Shown here in pieces: positions 2,139-20,663 of a stretch of 64,000 nt of DNA (positions are counted from its first letter, which is position 1; each line of letters starts with the position of its first letter). The notes under the pieces were generated by a model. The model had not been told where the DNA came from, made no database searches, and was given only the letters and a program-made list of their open reading frames with translations. Source of the DNA: an uncultured Clostridia bacterium. GTDB lineage: Bacteria; Bacillota; Clostridia; Christensenellales; Borkfalkiaceae. The stretch spans positions 1-64,000 of the forward strand of contig CAMWME010000001.1 of assembly GCA_947175325.1 (NCBI GenBank). The letters run 5' to 3'. The position numbers and the translations under genes are program-made.

Positions 2139-2223
2139 AGGCAAAATATAACATAATTCGACAATTTTGTAAACTTATTTTCTGCCCCGTTTGAAAACTC
2201 GTTTTTAGTCAATAATTAAAATT

Positions 2224-3678
2224 ATGAAATTTGAAAGCGTATGGAAGGCAGAAAAAAGAAATTATCCCGCACTTTACGGCAATGCGGAGCGGGACGTAGT
2301 AGTTATCGGAGGAGGTATAGCGGGCTATCTTACGGCGTTTAAGCTTGCGGAGGCGGGGCAGTTTGTAACGCTTATAGAGGCGGACGAGCTGTTCAGCGGC
2401 ACGACGGGCAGAACCACGGCAAAAATCACTTATAACCAAGGCGGAGTGTATTACGACCTTTATTATAATTACGGCTTGGAAACAGCAAAGGCTTACTATA
2501 AGGCACAAGTTGACGGTATGCGCGGTTTTAAAGAGCTTAAAGACAAGTTTTGCATAGAGTGCGACTGGGCTGAAACTAATGGATATATCTTTTCGTGCAG
2601 TTCGGAAACCCGCCTTAAAAGAACCTTCAGCGTTATGCAAGATATAGATGCCGATTGCGAGTGGACGAGTACGCTTTCGCACTTTGATGCAATCGCCGCG
2701 ATAAAATGCAGAAGGCAGTATTTATTCGACCCGCTCAAATTTCTTTGCGCCTTGCCGGTAAGGTTTGAAATCTTCGAACACACCCGCGCCATTGACGTTG
2801 ACGTGCAAAACAAAACCGTTTTGACCGATAAGGGCAAAATCAAGGCAAAGAAGATAGTTGTGGCAACGCACTTTCCAATAATCAATTCACACGGTGCGTA
2901 CTTTCTTAAGCTTCGGCAGTCAACTTCATACACCGTTGCAATAAATAAGCGGCTGACGGGTGAAATGTTTTTGGAGGAAAAGCAAGACGGAATATCAGTG
3001 CGCCCGTATGCCGGCGGAACCATTTTCGGAGGCGGCGACCACAGAACGGGAAGAATTAAGGACTTGGGGCACTTCCTCACGCTTAAAGCACGTGCTGAAA
3101 AGCTTTACGGCGCGGACACCGTTACTAACTGTTGGAGCGCGGAGGACGTTATGACCTTCGATGGTATGCCTATGACCGGGTTATACGCTAACGGCACTGA
3201 CGGAGTTTTCGTAATAACTGGTTTCAATAAATGGGGAATGGCTAACTCTATGACTTGTGCAAACCTTATTTGCGACCTTGTTTTAGGCAAAGAAAACGAG
3301 TATGAAAAGCTGTTCTCGCCGCAGCGCAAAGTCAAAGGGAGCATGGGTGCGTTCGTTTCAAATGCATTGACCAATATTAAAGAAATAACTATGGGCTACT
3401 TCCGACTGACCACAAAGACGGAGGCGGATATAGCAAAAGGCACCGGCGCAATAGTAAAGTATAACGGCAAGAAACGCGCCGTCTACCGCGACGAAGACGG
3501 CAATCTGCATATTATAGGCAGTATGTGCCCGCATATGCACGGCGAGCTTAAATGGAATGCAGATACGCACACTTGGGACTGTCCGTGCCACGGCTCGCGC
3601 TTTGATATTCACGGCAACATTCTTTCCGAACCCGCATCCAAATGCTGCAAATACGAACAAACAAAAAAAGAAGGGTAA
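2224..3678 (+). CDS. FAD-dependent oxidoreductase with C-terminal Rieske [2Fe-2S] domain
   Basis: Two-domain redox protein of 484 residues. The N-terminal DAO-type FAD domain begins with the dinucleotide-binding motif GGGIAG at about residues 29-34 followed by an acidic residue ending strand 2 (IEAD), and the conserved TGRTTAKIT segment. The C-terminal 80 residues carry a Rieske cluster site: CPHMH and, about 17 residues later, CPCHG, giving the two Cys and two His ligands. This FAD-Rieske architecture is recurrent in Bacillota and many other bacteria; the substrate is generally unknown. The gene stands alone, convergent with the nucleoside kinase and separated from it by a bidirectional terminator. 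It is predicted to be cytoplasmic, with no signal peptide. The architecture is certain, the reaction is not. Confidence 0.88.
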   Translation: MKFESVWKAEKRNYPALYGNAERDVVVIGGGIAGYLTAFKLAEAGQFVTLIEADELFSGTTGRTTAKITYNQGGVYYDLYYNYGLETAKAYYKAQVDGMRGFKELKDKFCIECDWAETNGYIFSCSSETRLKRTFSVMQDIDADCEWTSTLSHFDAIAAIKCRRQYLFDPLKFLCALPVRFEIFEHTRAIDVDVQNKTVLTDKGKIKAKKIVVATHFPIINSHGAYFLKLRQSTSYTVAINKRLTGEMFLEEKQDGISVRPYAGGTIFGGGDHRTGRIKDLGHFLTLKARAEKLYGADTVTNCWSAEDVMTFDGMPMTGLYANGTDGVFVITGFNKWGMANSMTCANLICDLVLGKENEYEKLFSPQRKVKGSMGAFVSNALTNIKEITMGYFRLTTKTEADIAKGTGAIVKYNGKKRAVYRDEDGNLHIIGSMCPHMHGELKWNADTHTWDCPCHGSRFDIHGNILSEPASKCCKYEQTKKEG

Positions 3679-12554: not shown

Positions 12555-12810
12555 AAGTGACCTCCTTAACTTCCTACGTGGCGGTATGTAGAGTTTTATT
12601 TTGTTGTTCCACGCAGGCTTCATCTGTAAAGGTTTAAAGCCTTTAACAGGTTTCGTATACTAAATAATATTTAAATTTTCTTAAAAATGTTACACTCCTT
12701 TTCATTTGCTTGAAAAATAAAATTTATTGTGTTAAAATTTATTTAAAACAAGATGCTTTCAGCCGCTACGTAAGGGTGGACTGTTTACAAGTATAATACT
12801 TTTATTGCTG

Positions 12811-12834
12811 CCGATATTCTTTTATAGAAATCGG
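12811..12834 (+). promoter_or_regulatory. Leader hairpin ahead of the ECF S-component gene
   Basis: Hairpin with arms CCGAT-(A)-TTCT and AGAA-ATCGG just before the GGAGG ribosome binding site of the membrane protein gene at 12848. It could modulate translation; I recognise no known riboswitch class in the leader. Confidence 0.35.
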
Positions 12835-12847
12835 ACGGAGGCTTTTT

Positions 12848-13486
12848 ATGAAAAGAGATAAAGCGCACTTTATCGCTTTTGTCGGCGTTATGTTTGCGCT
12901 GATATTCGTTCTGTTTTTATTGGAAGGCGCATTGTCGTTAGTTCTTGGAACAACGCCGTGTTTTCTTTCATTACCCGTCGCAATTGCGTTAAGTATTTAT
13001 GATGATTGGAAAAAAAGCTTCATCGGCGGAACGCTTTTAGGACTTGCAAGCTGTCTTTTCTGCCTTATCTTTGCATCGCTTTTTATAGTTTATGCAAACC
13101 CGCTTATTAGCGTTTTACCTAGGTTTTTTATTGGCGTAACGTCTTACTGGGCGTATTTTGGGCTTTCTAAGTTATTCAAAAAAGCCAAAAGCGTGTTTGT
13201 ACGGGAAAGTATACCCGCAGCAGTTGCCGGTGTTGTCGGTTCATTGACCAATACCGTTTTATACCTTCTTGCAATAAATATTTGGAGCGGTAATTTTATA
13301 GGGTCGCTTACTGCCATAATGAACGTTGCCGTTTCAATCTTTTTCCCCATAGAGTTGGCGGCTTGTCTAATTCTCGTGCCTATATACGTTGCGGTTCTTA
13401 AAAAAATCAACCATTCGCTTATAAATAAGCCTAAGAAAGTTATTGAAAGTACGGAGAACGTTTCTGAAAATGATAATTTGTCTTGA
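12848..13486 (+). CDS. ECF transporter S component, probably pantothenate (PanT-like)
   Basis: 212-residue integral membrane protein with about six hydrophobic segments and a charged C-terminal tail. The segments LPRFFIGVTSYWAYFGL and VVGSLTNTVLYLLA match the pattern seen in ECF transporter substrate-binding (S) subunits of the RibU/PanT superfamily. The 3' end overlaps coaX by 17 bp; since CoaX phosphorylates pantothenate, pantothenate is the most likely substrate, by context. S components need shared EcfA/A'/T partners, which are not in this window. The GGAGG ribosome binding site lies 8 nt upstream of the ATG. Confidence 0.72.
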   Translation: MKRDKAHFIAFVGVMFALIFVLFLLEGALSLVLGTTPCFLSLPVAIALSIYDDWKKSFIGGTLLGLASCLFCLIFASLFIVYANPLISVLPRFFIGVTSYWAYFGLSKLFKKAKSVFVRESIPAAVAGVVGSLTNTVLYLLAINIWSGNFIGSLTAIMNVAVSIFFPIELAACLILVPIYVAVLKKINHSLINKPKKVIESTENVSENDNLS

Positions 13487-15570: not shown

Positions 15571-17091
15571 TTATTCTTCAACTTTTGAAAATCCCTTTTT
15601 GGGTTTATATTTAATGAACAGCTTATATCTGAATGCGTAAAGCAAAGAAGCAATCGTAATAAGACCCGCAGCTCCGCAGATAACTCCGATAGTGACGGGG
15701 GATATATCCGTAACGTCAAGGCATCTTACGTTAATCCACATTTGGTTAATTTCGGCCAGCTTATCCTCGAAGTCGCGCATAACGACGCTGCGGCTTTTAA
15801 CGTTTTCGGGAGGATATTGTGCAAAAAGCTGTCTGCCGCGGTTGATTTCGCCGGTTGCTTTGTCAATTGCAAAGTCGTCCGAGTTGGCATCAATAATATA
15901 TTCGCCGTCTTCTCCGAAGAAATAGCTTACGTCGTAAGGAAGTACTTTGTTTTCGTCTGCATCGTCTTCCGCACCGTAAGTCCAGTCCAAATACTCAAAA
16001 ACCGTATCACCGGCAATAGCGGAGGTGTAGCCGATATAGTACATATTTCTTACTGCGTTTTTGGGGCGGGAGAGATAGTTTACGAAGGCCTCTGCGGCGG
16101 TCTGTCTTTTCTCGTTTCCGTCAATGCCGCTCTTTAACATAACCCAGCCGTCAAACCAAAGGTTTGCACACTCGTCGGGAACGGAATACCAAAGCTCGGT
16201 ACCGTCGGCGTCAGCTCCGTCTAAAATGGTTATTGCATCGCCCGACCACTGGTAGTTTGCAATTACTTTACCCGTAACCATATCAGCCTTGCCGGAGTCT
16301 GTTTCAAAGGAATAAACGTTGTCCTTAATTCTTTTTAAGACGTCCTCGGCTTTTGCTATCGTTTCGCTGTCTGTGGCGTTCATTAAGTCGGTTAAATGCT
16401 CGCTATCAAGCTGCTGTGTAGTCAGCTGCTCGCTGTTGATAATACCTAGTGCGGCAAAGTAGGCGTCGCGCACGTTGTCTTTAATCGTAACTTGTCTTTT
16501 GTAATCTTCATTCAAAAGAATATTCCAAGTAGAAACATCTGCATCGTCTTTGATTTTGTCGGGGTTGTATACGATACCCGTCGTGCCCCACATATAGCAA
16601 GCTGCGTATTTCTCCCAACCATACTCCGTGAATATTCCTTTAATATAGGGCGAAACGTTCGTTGCGTATTCGCCGTTTTTAAAGTCGTCGGAATATTCTT
16701 GAATTTTATCCTCGGCAAGAAGTTTCATTATCATATAGTCGGAGGGGCAAACCAAGTCGTAAACGTCTCCCAAGCTTAAACGGTTGTATAAGTCCTCGTT
16801 GGTGCCGAAGGTGGAGTACTCAACCTTAACCTTGAAGCCAAAGTCACTTTCGCCGTTAAACCATTCTGCGAACTCGTCGTAAATGGCGTTTTCGCCGAAG
16901 ATTTCTTCTCCGTTGTCAAGCGTGATACGCTCGTCATCTTTCCAACTGCCAAGGTCAATGTATTCTTCCCAACTGCACACGCGCAACGTAATTACTTCGT
17001 CTTGTTCCGAGCAACCCGCGAAGGTCAAAGCCGAAGCCCCGACGAGTCCGCAAGCGGCGGCAACGGATAAAATCTTTTTAAATTTTTTCAC
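15571..17091 (-). CDS. potD: PotD: spermidine/putrescine-binding lipoprotein with extra C-terminal membrane helix
   Basis: Extracellular solute-binding protein of the polyamine ABC transporter. A signal peptide with lipobox LTFAGC (Cys at about 26) anchors it as a lipoprotein. The mature part contains the typical YSTFGTNEDLYNRL, VCPSDYMIMKL and WGTTGIVYNP segments. At about 506 residues it is longer than classic PotD (about 350); besides insertions, residues about 462-485 form a second hydrophobic helix with a basic tail, which is unusual for a binding protein. The start is a GTG with an excellent GGAGG 7 nt upstream. It overlaps potC by 14 bp and is the last gene of the operon. Confidence 0.92.
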   Translation of the reverse strand: MKKFKKILSVAAACGLVGASALTFAGCSEQDEVITLRVCSWEEYIDLGSWKDDERITLDNGEEIFGENAIYDEFAEWFNGESDFGFKVKVEYSTFGTNEDLYNRLSLGDVYDLVCPSDYMIMKLLAEDKIQEYSDDFKNGEYATNVSPYIKGIFTEYGWEKYAACYMWGTTGIVYNPDKIKDDADVSTWNILLNEDYKRQVTIKDNVRDAYFAALGIINSEQLTTQQLDSEHLTDLMNATDSETIAKAEDVLKRIKDNVYSFETDSGKADMVTGKVIANYQWSGDAITILDGADADGTELWYSVPDECANLWFDGWVMLKSGIDGNEKRQTAAEAFVNYLSRPKNAVRNMYYIGYTSAIAGDTVFEYLDWTYGAEDDADENKVLPYDVSYFFGEDGEYIIDANSDDFAIDKATGEINRGRQLFAQYPPENVKSRSVVMRDFEDKLAEINQMWINVRCLDVTDISPVTIGVICGAAGLITIASLLYAFRYKLFIKYKPKKGFSKVEE

Positions 17092-17884
17092 GCTTTGCCT
17101 CCTTTTTTCTGCTCGACATAACGTTCATAAGCAAAACTACGACGATAACAATTAAGAAAATGAGGGTTGAAAGCGCCCAAAGCGCGGTTTTAACTTCGGT
17201 CTGACTGCCCTTGGTTGCATTCACGACGTAAGTACTGATAGTATCGAAGGTGGAGGGTTTAGTGTAAGTGGTGACGAAGTAGTCGTCCAAAGAAAGGGTA
17301 ACCGCAAGCATAAAGCCCGAAAGTATTCCGGGGATTAGCTGGGGCAAAACCACCTTAAAAAGAGCTTGTGCGGGCGTTGCGCCAAGGTCCAAAGCCGCCT
17401 CGTATAAGCTGTTGTCCATCTGTTTTAATTTGGGCAATATAGAAAGATAAACGAAGGGGGTGGTCAGCACGACGTGCCCTATCCCTAAGGGGATATAGGT
17501 GTCCTTACTTATTCTCAGCATAACGATAAGCAGAATGCAGATTGAAAAGCCCGTTACTATGTCGGCGTTGACTACGGGTATCTGATTTGCCGTATTGATA
17601 AGCGTTTTGGGGAGTTTCTTGGAATAAAACGTTCCTATCGCGCCGCAAGTTGCAAGCACGGTTGATATGCACGCGCAGACGAAAGCGAGAAGAATCGTGC
17701 CGAGAATCATATTTCTGAGTTCTTCGTTTTTAAACAGATTTATATAATTCTCAAATGAAAATCCGCCCATATTCGCGCCTACGACGGTAGCTTCCGAAAA
17801 GCTGTAAACGGCAAGCACGAGAATAGGAATATAGATAAACAAGAGTACGATGGCAAGCCAAATTATGCGTAAATACTTTTTCAT
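17078..17884 (-). CDS. potC: PotC: spermidine/putrescine ABC transporter permease
   Basis: 268-residue permease with six transmembrane segments. The EAA loop (EAALDLGATPAQALFKVVLPQLIPG) that contacts the ATPase is clear in the second half. The order potA-potB-potC-potD and the overlaps on both sides (4 bp with potB, 14 bp with potD) make it the PotC-type partner. It forms the inner-membrane channel with PotB. Confidence 0.93.
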   Translation of the reverse strand: MKKYLRIIWLAIVLLFIYIPILVLAVYSFSEATVVGANMGGFSFENYINLFKNEELRNMILGTILLAFVCACISTVLATCGAIGTFYSKKLPKTLINTANQIPVVNADIVTGFSICILLIVMLRISKDTYIPLGIGHVVLTTPFVYLSILPKLKQMDNSLYEAALDLGATPAQALFKVVLPQLIPGILSGFMLAVTLSLDDYFVTTYTKPSTFDTISTYVVNATKGSQTEVKTALWALSTLIFLIVIVVVLLMNVMSSRKKEAKREKI

Positions 17885-18678
17885 AAAATCGCCCCCTTGT
17901 TGTTTGCGTCTTTATCGCTGAAACGGTTGGTTACAAGCGTAACGATGAAAATAATTATGAGTAGTACCAATGAAATCAACGAGCCGTTATTCCAGTCGTA
18001 CGCGCTGAAATAACTGCCGATAAGGCTGCCCATTATATAAGTGTTGTTGTAAAGCATATCCAAAACGACGTAGTTCGTCATAGAGGGAAGAAGCACCATC
18101 GTTATTCCCGAAATTATTCCGGGAACGGAGAGGGGCAAAGTTACTCTTAAAAATACGGTTGCTTTGTTTGCGCCCAAATCCGAAGCCGCCTCTAAAAGAC
18201 TGTTATCGAGTTTTTGCAAAGAGGTGTACAAGGGTAAAATCATAAAAGGCAAGAAGTCGTAAGTCATTCCTATCACGGAGTTCAAGAATGGATAGACCGA
18301 AATATTGCCCTCTAAAACCGATAAAACCTCTTTAAGCGCGGTAATTCTAAGCGTAAAGTTTATCCACATAGGAAGGATAAACAGAAGCAAAAGAACGTAC
18401 TTTTTCTTCATTTTGCTTCTTGCAAGAATGTAAGCGGTGGGGTAGGCTATAACGAGGCAAACGGCAGTCGTAACAATTGCCACCGCAAAGCTGTACAAAA
18501 GCGTACCCAAAGTTTTCGTACTTGTGAAAAAGTTCACAAAGTTGTCGAAGGTGAAGTGCCCTTGCCCGTTAGTAAACGCGTAGTAAACTATTACGAATAG
18601 GGGCGCAATCACGAATAAAACCAAAAACACCGCGTAAGGTATGCATAGGTGCTTTCTGTTAAAACGCAGTCCTTTCAT
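17881..18678 (-). CDS. potB: PotB: spermidine/putrescine ABC transporter permease
   Basis: 265-residue permease with six transmembrane segments and the EAA motif (EAASDLGANKATVFLRV). It starts one base after the stop of potA and overlaps potC by 4 bp, so the three are translationally coupled. The N-terminal MKGLRFNRKHLC is short and basic, as expected for a cytoplasmic end. Confidence 0.93.
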   Translation of the reverse strand: MKGLRFNRKHLCIPYAVFLVLFVIAPLFVIVYYAFTNGQGHFTFDNFVNFFTSTKTLGTLLYSFAVAIVTTAVCLVIAYPTAYILARSKMKKKYVLLLLFILPMWINFTLRITALKEVLSVLEGNISVYPFLNSVIGMTYDFLPFMILPLYTSLQKLDNSLLEAASDLGANKATVFLRVTLPLSVPGIISGITMVLLPSMTNYVVLDMLYNNTYIMGSLIGSYFSAYDWNNGSLISLVLLIIIFIVTLVTNRFSDKDANNKGAIL

Positions 18679-18679
18679 T

Positions 18680-20191
18680 TTATTTGCTCTCTCCCGCGGG
18701 CTTTAAGGTAAGCTTGATTTTGTCTTTCGGAATAATAATGCCTACGAAGTCGCCCGTGTTCCAAGTATCGGGGCAAGAAAGCACGTAATCTTCCTCGTTT
18801 TCTTCCGTTCTTACGATATAGCGGTAGTGGTCGCCCTTGTAAATCATTGAAATAATATTGCCTTGTGCGCCGCCAGCGTCCTTGTCGTCGCTCATCTGAA
18901 TGTCGTTAGTATCAACTTCAACGTTTACTTCAACGCCCGTGAGGTCGACTTTTTCACCGTTTGCAGTGATAAGATAGCCTTCTTCGTCCAAATGAGAGGA
19001 AGGATAAAGCTGAGTAACGTCGCACTCGAACTCGCCGTCGCCGAACTTAACCGTATTGTTTTTAGTGATTTCACCGTCGTATTTGTTCACGGTGTAAACC
19101 TTTTCCATAAGGTGAATACCGTCGGGCTCTATTCTAAGACCGATGGTGCTTCCGACGGGGGCGGTGGAGGTGCTTTGAATAATGATTTCGAATTTACCAA
19201 CGATTACGGTAATTTCGTAATGCACGCCCTTGAACACCGAAGAAATAACTTGACCTTTAAGCTGACCTTCGCCGGGTTTACAGATTTTTATATCTTCGGG
19301 GCGGACCACTACGTCAACAAGCTGGTTAATTTCGTAATCGTCGAGGCAGTCGAACGTTGCGCCGCAGAACTTAACTTTAAGGTTGCCGACGACCGTACCG
19401 TTGAAAATGTTGCTTTCACCTATAAAGTCGGCAACGAAGGTGTTCACGGGTTCGTTGTAAATCTCGGTGGGAGTGCCCGTCTGTTGAATATCGCCGTCGT
19501 TTATAACGACGATTTTATCGGACATCGTCAAAGCTTCTTCTTGGTCGTGAGTAACGTAGATAAAGGTTATGCCAAGCTTCTTGTGCATGTTTTTAAGCTC
19601 GACTTGCATTTCTTTACGCATCTTTAAATCGAGCGCGCCCAAAGGCTCGTCCAAAAGAAGAATTTCGGGTTCGTTTACGATAGCGCGGGCAATAGCTATA
19701 CGCTGCTGCTGTCCGCCCGAAAGGGTGGAAACGCTTCGCTTTTCAAACCCTTCGAGGTCAACTATTTCAAGCGCCTTTTTAACTTTCTTGTCAATTTCGG
19801 CTTTCGTCAGTTTTTCTTTCTTGGTGTATTTTTCGCCCTTGTCGTTTGCGTAGGTACTTTCAATTCTTTTCAAACGCAACCCGAACGCAATGTTTTCGTA
19901 AACGTTGAGGTGGGGGAAGAGGGCGTATTTTTGGAAAACGGTATTGACGGGTCTTTTATTGGGCGGAAGGCGGCTTATGTCCTCGCCGTTCAAAAGTATT
20001 TTGCCCGAGGTAGGCAGTTCAAAGCCCGCAATCATTCTCAAAGTAGTGGTTTTGCCGCAGCCCGAAGGGCCTAAAAAGGTTACGAATTCACCTTTTTTAA
20101 CTTCAAGATTAAAGTTGTCAACTGCTATCGTATCGTCGTCGAATACTTTTCTTACGTCGATAAGCTCGATAATGTTTTCGCTTTTGCTCAT
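18680..20191 (-). CDS. potA: PotA: spermidine/putrescine ABC transporter ATP-binding protein, with two TOBE regions
   Basis: 503-residue ATPase. Walker A is [10 protein letters not shown] (near residue 43), the ABC signature is LSGGQQQR, Walker B is [11 protein letters not shown], and a lysine-rich insertion of about 30 residues precedes the signature. A TOBE domain follows the ATPase core, and an unusual second TOBE-like module ([16 protein letters not shown]) forms the C-terminus, making it about 150 residues longer than E. coli PotA. The start at 20191 has a good RBS (AGGAG, 7 nt away); the reading frame stays open 55 codons further upstream, but through a terminator hairpin, so that extension is rejected. 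A long structured leader precedes the gene. Confidence 0.93.
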
Positions 20192-20204
20192 TTCGGTTCT
20201 CCTA

Positions 20205-20237
20205 ACAAAAAAATAAAGACGACCTGAAAGTCGTCTT
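20205..20237 (-). terminator. Intrinsic terminator in the potA leader (attenuator)
   Basis: Read on the minus strand, AAGACGAC pairs with GTCGTCTT around a 6-nt loop, followed by TATTTTTTT. It stands immediately ahead of the potA ribosome binding site and about 230 nt downstream of the promoter, so it must be bypassed for pot expression. Confidence 0.75.
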
Positions 20238-20465
20238 ACCGTAAAAATGCATATATACGCATCTTTAAACTTATATCGTGTTTTGGACTTTTTAGAGTCT
20301 ATATAGCAAATACTTTTACTACTCTTATTGACCGTTTCACAAGTGACGCCCTTCAAGGCTTTGATTATAAAGTAATCAACTTATAAAATTTGAGCTTTTA
20401 ACTCAATCAATAATGCGGTTTAAACCGCGCGGGTATTTGCGTGAACTCTAAAAGTTCTATACCAT
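20238..20465 (-). promoter_or_regulatory. Structured 5' leader of the potABCD operon, candidate riboswitch or attenuator
   Basis: About 230 nt without a gene between the potA promoter and the leader terminator. On the minus strand it can form several hairpins: GAACT/AGTTC, a GCGGTTTAAACCGC palindrome, TTGAG/CTCAA, TTGATTA/TAATCAA (7 bp, 5-nt loop), GCC/GGC and ATGC/GCAT. I recognise no consensus of a known riboswitch class. Together with the terminal terminator this has the layout of a ligand-responsive or antitermination leader; polyamine sensing is inference from the downstream genes. Confidence 0.5.
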
Positions 20466-20471
20466 AAGACG

Positions 20472-20500
20472 AGTATAAGGTAAAAAAAAGCCGTTGTCAA
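20472..20500 (-). promoter_or_regulatory. Promoter of the potABCD operon
   Basis: On the minus strand, consensus TTGACA, a 17-bp spacer and TATACT. Transcription would begin near 20465, about 270 nt upstream of the potA start. Confidence 0.8.
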
Positions 20501-20531
20501 ATAAAATTTAATAATATTTTCATTAAATAAG

Positions 20532-20560
20532 TTGATTTTTTAACCGTAATCGTTTAAAAT
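20532..20560 (+). promoter_or_regulatory. Promoter of tRNA-Ser
   Basis: TTGATT, 17-bp spacer, TAAAAT; 12 bp upstream of the tRNA 5' end. Confidence 0.6.
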
Positions 20561-20572
20561 CAATAAGGTACT

Positions 20573-20663
20573 GCGGAGATGGCTGAGCGGTTTAAGGCGC
20601 ACGATTGGAAATCGTGTGACGGCTAATACCCGTCCGGAGGTTCAAATCCTCTTCTCCGCGCCA
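20573..20663 (+). tRNA. tRNA-Ser (GGA)
   Basis: Class II tRNA. The acceptor stem GCGGAGA pairs with TCTCCGC, followed by G and an encoded CCA. The anticodon stem ACGAT/ATCGT encloses a loop with anticodon GGA; a long variable arm (GACGGCTAATACCCGTC) and the T-loop GGTTCAAATCC are clear. Confidence 0.97.

Follow-up and report, generated by a model that had tools for sequence, protein, structure and literature searches.

An RNA leader ahead of potABCD is a member of a widespread Bacillota element that probably senses polyamine sufficiency and terminates transcription

In an uncultured Clostridia bacterium a structured non-coding leader lies between a promoter and a polyamine transport operon, raising the question of what this leader controls and to which signal it responds. 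The locus was analysed in the window, i.e. the whole stretch of 64,000 nucleotides, and its features lie on the minus strand unless stated otherwise. The operon comprises potA (polyamine ABC transporter ATPase, 18680..20191, ATG at 20191), the permease genes potB (17881..18678) and potC (17078..17884), and a gene for a potD-like substrate-binding protein (15571..17091). PotA was assigned to the NCBIfam potA subfamily TIGR01187, barely over the cut-off, the Pfam permease domain was present in both PotB and PotC, and PotD gave matches only under equivalog cut-offs. The PotA protein has 503 amino acids, and the PotA models that it matched span 325-378 positions. A hydrophobic C-terminal segment of the PotD-like protein resembles a membrane anchor by eye.

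The first-pass annotation, made from the letters of the DNA, had described a consensus promoter, about 230 nt of hairpin-rich RNA and an 8-bp terminator with a T-tract ahead of the potA ribosome binding site. The promoter was found as described, at 20472..20500, with TTGACA at 20500-20495, a 17-nt spacer and TATACT at 20477-20472, a sigma-70-type arrangement agreeing with the consensus at 11 of 12 positions. Within 2 kb, 4 promoter-like sites were seen and 6.0 were expected, so that a lone match is not beyond chance. The pattern TTGACH-N16..19-TAWAHT was present 5' of the RNA in 27 of the 28 genus copies examined; across the complete set, 136 of the 221 copies had a match to a looser pattern. 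The whole leader RNA, from the start site predicted from the -10 box to the end of the terminator stem, covers 20216..20464, and the leader proper from that predicted start, ~20464 to 20238, is ~226 nt long. Its richness in hairpins was confirmed by folding 20466-20192 with the terminator, which gave -69.4 kcal/mol compared with -51.7 +/- 4.4 kcal/mol in 200 dinucleotide-shuffled sequences, none of which folded as stably (z = -4.0). The terminator is followed by a U-tract (20207..20215) and by the Shine-Dalgarno sequence AGGAG of potA (20199..20203), as had been claimed, but its hairpin (20216..20237, 4-nt loop) has a stem of 9 bp, not 8 bp. Both a DNA search and a covariance model found the leader only once in its genome. 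A tRNA-Ser (GGA) gene adjoins the leader promoter on the opposite strand (20573-20663, plus strand); a tRNA gene takes the equivalent position at two other loci (L003 and L004).

No known class of regulatory RNA was recognised in the window copy. A search of 20150-20560 with Rfam 15 gave no hit at the gathering score and, at E <= 10, none that was credible, in agreement with the first-pass annotation, which had seen no familiar riboswitch. Membership in the T-box leaders and in the guanidine riboswitches (ykkC, mini-ykkC) was rejected since none of these covariance models matched in the window, and that in the SAM-I variants since RF00162 had no match at E <= 10 in the window region. In a scan of 55 loci RF00162 was likewise absent from the element; one locus (L226) had a match, but ~3.7 kb away from it. 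The 54-nt model of RF02440 (SpF59_sRNA) did not match the window copy at gathering score. Other structured RNAs were seen nearby: in the window, a 'pan' motif (RF01749, 39.0 bits, gathering 36.2) at 12760-12842 of the plus strand lies ~600 nt upstream of a frame at 13443 that resembles a type III pantothenate kinase (CoaX), and at another locus (L092) a 6S RNA gene (2143-2329, minus strand) lies ~0.5 kb upstream of the element.

The initial DNA query against 93 genus genomes combined the leader with the 5'-terminal 42 nt of potA, and it returned core matches in many genomes with a gene other than potA behind. The covariance models R1 and R2 and the search pattern contain no coding sequence. 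R1 matched in 90 of 398 family genomes, representing 8 of 18 genera. The core-only model R2 matched in 37 of 396 genomes sampled within the order and in 21 of 398 phylum genomes (minimum completeness 90), both of these sets overlapping with the family set. A pattern scan of named genomes gave at least 118 stretches. Among the pattern matches listed, R2 confirmed 79 of 80 in a first batch, and it confirmed 76 of 78 in a second batch made up of the other 38 listed matches and 40 order and phylum loci. According to the record titles, the hosts include Streptococcus, Bacillus, Neobacillus, Paenibacillus, Heyndrickxia, Lachnospiraceae, Oscillospiraceae, Faecalibacterium, Acidaminococcus and Phascolarctobacterium. 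Pattern matches without an R2 match, in Arenicella (L201), Prolixibacteraceae (L252) and Streptococcus entericus (L234), were left out, as were three of the 91 family matches, two of them (L023 and L024) nearly duplicating L022 and L025 and the third, in G122, being the weakest. Anchor-based deduplication left 218 distinct copies of the 243 collected. The leader is a conserved RNA element and is not specific to potA.

Between species within the genus the conserved core of ~125 nt reaches 98% identity, also where a different gene lies behind it. In the window R1 matched it end to end at 20294..20443 with 171.9 bits, a score for a sequence that is in the R1 training set. The core consists of P2 followed by P3, which surrounds P4 and P5, with P5 surrounding P6 and P7; the long-range helix P1 closes the whole. 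The outer closing stem P1a, formed by 20444..20453 and 20290..20299 (pairing with 20299-20290), was found in the minimum free energy structure and is backed by the own-versus-swapped test described below; its 5' strand competes with a local hairpin at 20457-20443. P1b, GCAAAUAC (20433..20440) with GUAUUUGC (20306..20313, read as 20313-20306), is absent from the minimum free energy structure of the window copy, in which its 3' strand forms a local hairpin. P2 is the hairpin GCGG..CCGC (20415..20428), with 4 of 4 pairs changed on both sides among the copies. P3 pairs UUAUUGA (20407..20413) with UCAAUAA (20325..20331, from 20331 to 20325) and is nearly invariant. P4, UUGAG-UUAAAAG-CUCAA (20390..20406), has 3 to 4 of 5 pairs changed on both sides. 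P5, formed by UUUAUAAGU (20379..20387) and ACUUGUGAA (20336..20344, from 20344 to 20336), is nearly invariant with some UG to UA or CG changes; its 3' strand is among the most conserved strands and, in many relatives, doubles as the antiterminator partner. P6, UGAUUA-CUUUA-UAAUCA (20362..20378), with 5 to 6 of 6 pairs changed on both sides, is altered or absent in some relatives, and in P7, GCC..GGC (20348..20359), 3 of 3 pairs were changed on both sides and 84% of cells were paired.

Covariation within the genus was uninformative because its sequences hardly vary; it did not exceed that of shuffles (3 double-changed pairs versus 1.6, 68/500). The 88 family copies, in an alignment that was fitted to the covariance model, had 20 of 42 pairs double-changed compared with a shuffled mean of 9.0 (0/500), and 96.3% of cells were paired compared with 28-47% in slid controls. 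Two sets of mostly new taxa, with 27 modelled pairs each, gave 11 double changes versus 3.6 shuffled and 8 versus 3.1 (both 0/500). Over the covariation sets, slid controls had 24-55% of cells paired versus 96%. The covariance search of related leaders proposed in the first-pass annotation therefore did recover covarying helices (20/42, 11/27 and 8/27 pairs), and a conserved, structured, aptamer-like core with covariation, as is looked for in a riboswitch, is present. P2, P4, P6 and P7 vary with compensation; P3 and P5, being nearly invariant, yield little covariation evidence. A single shared alignment of P1 was abandoned, as its position slides between architecture types and its 5' strand lies further upstream in copies bearing an additional domain, and for this reason each copy's own strands were compared with swapped strands. 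In 58 representatives of 209 usable copies, own P1 strands paired at -18.1 kcal/mol and swapped strands at -15.1 kcal/mol (sd 0.38; 0/5000). In six copies (L064, L065, L069, L080, L082 and L108) the P4 loop was replaced or changed and P6 was concurrently altered or lost, a hint of contact between loops L4 and L6; three others (L010, L027 and L029) had lost P6 and kept the P4 loop. Across the wider tally, 115 of 123 readable cases were compatible with a loop-loop contact, the breaks being 5 A-C, 2 G-A and 1 A-G, which is only suggestive.

The genes behind the element were called by blastp against references taken from the loci, on the same strand and within 1.5 kb. Seven of the 218 distinct copies had too little downstream DNA and were set aside. 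In all 211 readable copies collected the first recognised gene belonged to one of four families, ADC (arginine-decarboxylase-like, 106), SpeD (54), CASDH (carboxy(nor)spermidine synthase, 27) or PotA (24), with small unrecognised frames possible between the RNA and that gene. The families were not preset; the references came from the loci and CASDH was added once seen. Start codons lay 66-526 nt from the end of the model (median 166, 211 copies). Identities were checked on examples with NCBIfam and Pfam. The ADC-like PLP decarboxylase carries Pfam OKR_DC_1 (Orn/Lys/Arg decarboxylase), far under the NCBIfam equivalog cut-offs; the name ADC is used here since the available text of PMC7990898 gives its pneumococcal relative SP0916 as an arginine decarboxylase. 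The SpeD example exceeded the cut-off of TIGR03331. CASDH has saccharopine-dehydrogenase Pfam domains, and its best NCBIfam model was carboxynorspermidine synthase with 418 bits, below the 800-bit equivalog cut-off; at one locus (L186) nspC follows it. Another locus (L176) has speD, then ADC, speE and speB. PotA was found behind the element in the window genus, in the family genera g15 and g5, and in single Lachnospiraceae (L194), Oscillospiraceae (L235) and Clostridia (L269) MAGs. The linkage of every readable copy to the genes of one metabolite pathway is that expected of a riboswitch, and it strongly supports by comparison what the first-pass annotation had guessed from the downstream genes, namely a connection with polyamines.

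Within the genus set of 93 genomes, many of them incomplete, the element itself was detected in 39 genomes, ADC orthologs in 30 (E <= 1e-100) and PotA in 60 (E <= 1e-150). Of the 30 genomes with ADC, 28 have the RNA ahead of that gene; of the two others, G021 has no RNA and in G049 ADC is cut at the contig start. The RNA preceded potA in 11 of the 60 PotA genomes, none of which has an ADC ortholog; where both genes occur, in the three genomes G041, G084 and G090, it is found at ADC only. The sole decarboxylase homolog of the window genome is 28% identical. Thus, in genomes without the decarboxylase, the import operon seems either to have retained the element or to have gained it by relocation. 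The remaining 49 of 60 potA genomes have no RNA at potA; 21 such upstream regions were searched with R2 with filters off, and 0/21 matched (best E 0.08), although one of these regions (L295) comprises only ~75 nt and is hardly a test. Uniform control of all genus potA genes was therefore rejected. potA genes without such a leader, which the first-pass annotation had considered fatal to its proposal, are the majority in the genus, and the RNA is nonetheless found at 11 of 60.

Of the 211 copies, 164 had a terminator-like hairpin in the interval from the RNA to the start codon, compared with 12 of 211 shuffled ones. By family it was found in 89 of 106 ADC, 44 of 54 SpeD, 20 of 24 PotA and 11 of 27 CASDH loci, and was lacking by the rule used in 17, 10, 4 and 16, respectively. 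At Bacillus and Paenibacillus CASDH loci (e.g. L161, L179 and L186) the gap from core to start codon is up to ~340 nt; the expression platform of CASDH loci may differ. The terminator 5' arm found its best partner upstream in the conserved ACUUGUG strand, scored within -14..+12 of the CUUGUGA element, in 123 of 163 cases (23 for a uniform distribution, 41 for shuffled arms), divided into 70 of 89 for ADC, 28 of 44 for SpeD, 16 of 20 for PotA and 9 of 10 for CASDH. The remaining 40 of 163, among them L155 and L203 from streptococci, had their best partner elsewhere. Own terminator arms scored -9.7 versus -7.6 for swapped arms (sd 0.21; 0/5000, 88 representatives). The pairing extends, in many copies, over both the P7 3' strand and ACUUGU. 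The candidate antiterminator strand in the window, GGCGUC (20345..20350), pairs with GACGACU (20235-20229) with one bulge; this pairing is short and weak (-6.0 kcal/mol). Mutually exclusive terminator and antiterminator were thus found for the family as sequence complementarity, and in weak form in the window copy. Together with the covarying helices, this arrangement lends strong comparative support to the attenuator or riboswitch suggested by the first-pass annotation.

Many copies contain an extra domain between P1 and P2, GACC..GGCCAUACGGACAGCC..GGGUC followed by UGCCGA. A crude motif for this 5' domain was found in 121 of the 210 distinct copies with enough upstream DNA. The Rfam family RF02440, 'Streptococcus sRNA SpF59 (ldcC RNA)', has a 54-nt model that matches the 5' domain alone. 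Matches adjoining the core on its upstream side were obtained at 13 of 15 named loci and at 15 of another 20 (18 family, 2 named) chosen mainly for the 5' domain. Of 24 genus loci scanned, 2 matched (L031 and L063) and 22 did not, the window copy included. The window copy is a trimmed member without the part visible to Rfam, and its Rfam scan was empty for that reason. An Rfam hit to a known class, which the earlier proposal had set against itself, is therefore lacking for the window copy and exists for its relatives in the form of an 'sRNA' entry that covers the 5' domain only. The proposal survives both this and the potA genes without the leader. The alias 'ldcC RNA' shows that the gene context had been noticed by someone earlier. 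In S. pseudopneumoniae (L203), core, RF02440-like domain (28.5 bits, below threshold), terminator and ADC ortholog follow in order. The F59/srn235 transcript is located upstream of the pneumococcal speA operon in the portions available of PMC3395615 and PMC12323649, and judging from the RF02440 name and the S. pseudopneumoniae locus, F59 would be this element. In searches of the open-access literature we found no description of the core, of its linkage to polyamine genes or of RF02440 as a switch.

From these results the element is almost certainly a cis-regulatory RNA of polyamine genes, and a switch between terminator and antiterminator is very likely. The antiterminator pairing would open P7 and P5 and therefore excludes the closed core, with which the terminator is compatible; it follows that a ligand stabilising the core would switch the gene off. 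At low polyamine the P7/P5 3' strand would pair with the terminator 5' arm as antiterminator and potABCD would be transcribed. With ample polyamine the closed core (P1-P3-P5-P7) would hold that strand, the terminator could form and transcription would end ahead of potA. SpeD/SpeE and the carboxyspermidine route both end in spermidine, which is also a substrate of PotABCD. Because each of the four gene families has spermidine either as its end product or as its cargo, it is the proposed ligand, and its direct binding is likely. The window leader is one copy of a widespread Bacillota RNA that probably senses polyamine sufficiency, most plausibly by binding spermidine directly, and terminates transcription.

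As far as the sources were available, the published results on pneumococcus are mostly consistent with an OFF switch operated by spermidine. When polyamines were lowered by deletion of potABCD, qRT-PCR showed a 16.9-fold rise of speA and a 14.4-fold rise of speE, a rise absent from the RNA-seq of the same paper (portions of PMC8540371); the operon that rises when polyamines fall is the F59-led speA operon. Deletion of speE raised the level of arginine decarboxylase protein (excerpts of PMC7990898). The same review, in the text at hand, also reports that deletion of putrescine synthesis lowers the expression of transport and spermidine-synthesis genes (PMC7990898), which a simple OFF switch does not predict and for which polarity is possible.

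A protein factor could also be the sensor. In that case an RNA-binding protein, either polyamine-sensing or limiting in its own right, might bind the invariant core and control termination. The extreme invariance of the paired strands of P3 and P5 could equally mean protein recognition or a ligand pocket. However, the element spans several Bacillota classes and such a protein would need an equal spread. A multi-helix junction with a built-in antiterminator is typical riboswitch architecture. We consider the protein-binding attenuator fairly unlikely.

Direct binding of spermidine must also be weighed against binding of another pathway metabolite, such as putrescine, agmatine, arginine or decarboxylated SAM. 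The commonest context is an ADC-like gene (106/211), whose product would be agmatine. However, CASDH and SpeD act on different intermediates, and spermidine is the simplest product shared by them. The carboxyspermidine route uses no decarboxylated SAM. The rise of arginine decarboxylase upon speE deletion, as given in the accessible text of PMC7990898, also argues against these metabolites, and we consider them quite unlikely as the ligand.

It is very unlikely that the terminated transcript is a trans-acting small RNA, with merely incidental read-through into the downstream genes. The publications, as far as available, list F59/srn235 among the sRNAs, and RF02440 is typed 'Gene; sRNA', but every readable copy precedes one of four unrelated polyamine gene families and the covarying antiterminator points to cis control. 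Ribosome-mediated attenuation through a leader peptide, as at enterobacterial speF, was rejected as extremely improbable, since single-copy open frames exist (e.g. the TTG frame at 20356 running into potA) but closed frames of >= 6 codons preceded by a Shine-Dalgarno sequence were found in only 10 of 175 leaders.

With more than 200 distinct copies in Bacillota, the element lies ahead of both the synthesis and the import branches of spermidine supply. If the spermidine reading is true, polyamine feedback control would become directly testable with purified RNA, the pneumococcal 'sRNA' would be reinterpreted, and the 54-nt Rfam entry would be extended to a full regulatory RNA. On balance, we favour the view that the element is a second class of spermidine riboswitch, of unrelated structure and far wider spread, acting on synthesis and import, with F59 as its terminated leader and the window copy as a trimmed form at the import operon of species without the decarboxylase.

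Natural polyamine riboswitches are a contested field, as stated in the part of PMC10853860 that was available. Among known systems, the 'ABC-leader' of Pasteurellaceae, described in the text obtained from PMC2965389, is likewise a predicted attenuator ahead of potABCD, but it belongs to Gammaproteobacteria and is likened here by description, not by sequence. RF02440 covers the 5' domain of the element at the same genomic place; it is typed as an sRNA gene, and its model extends to neither the core (P2-P7) nor P1 nor the expression platform. Pneumococcal F59 (srn235, SN20, Spd_sr49) is similarly a transcript upstream of the SP0916 arginine decarboxylase gene, but in the published text available it is a putative sRNA and not a switch of polyamine genes. 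A further parallel is the validated spermidine riboswitch, a SAM-I variant, which its authors call rare while expecting more to exist (PMC10853860, in part). According to the same partial text it is associated with overlapping Firmicutes genes (speE, speB, speD and ldcC) and is also a transcriptional OFF switch with terminator and antiterminator (PMC10853860). It adopts the SAM-I fold, whereas the element described here has no RF00162 match, in the window or at any of the 55 loci examined, and is built from other helices.
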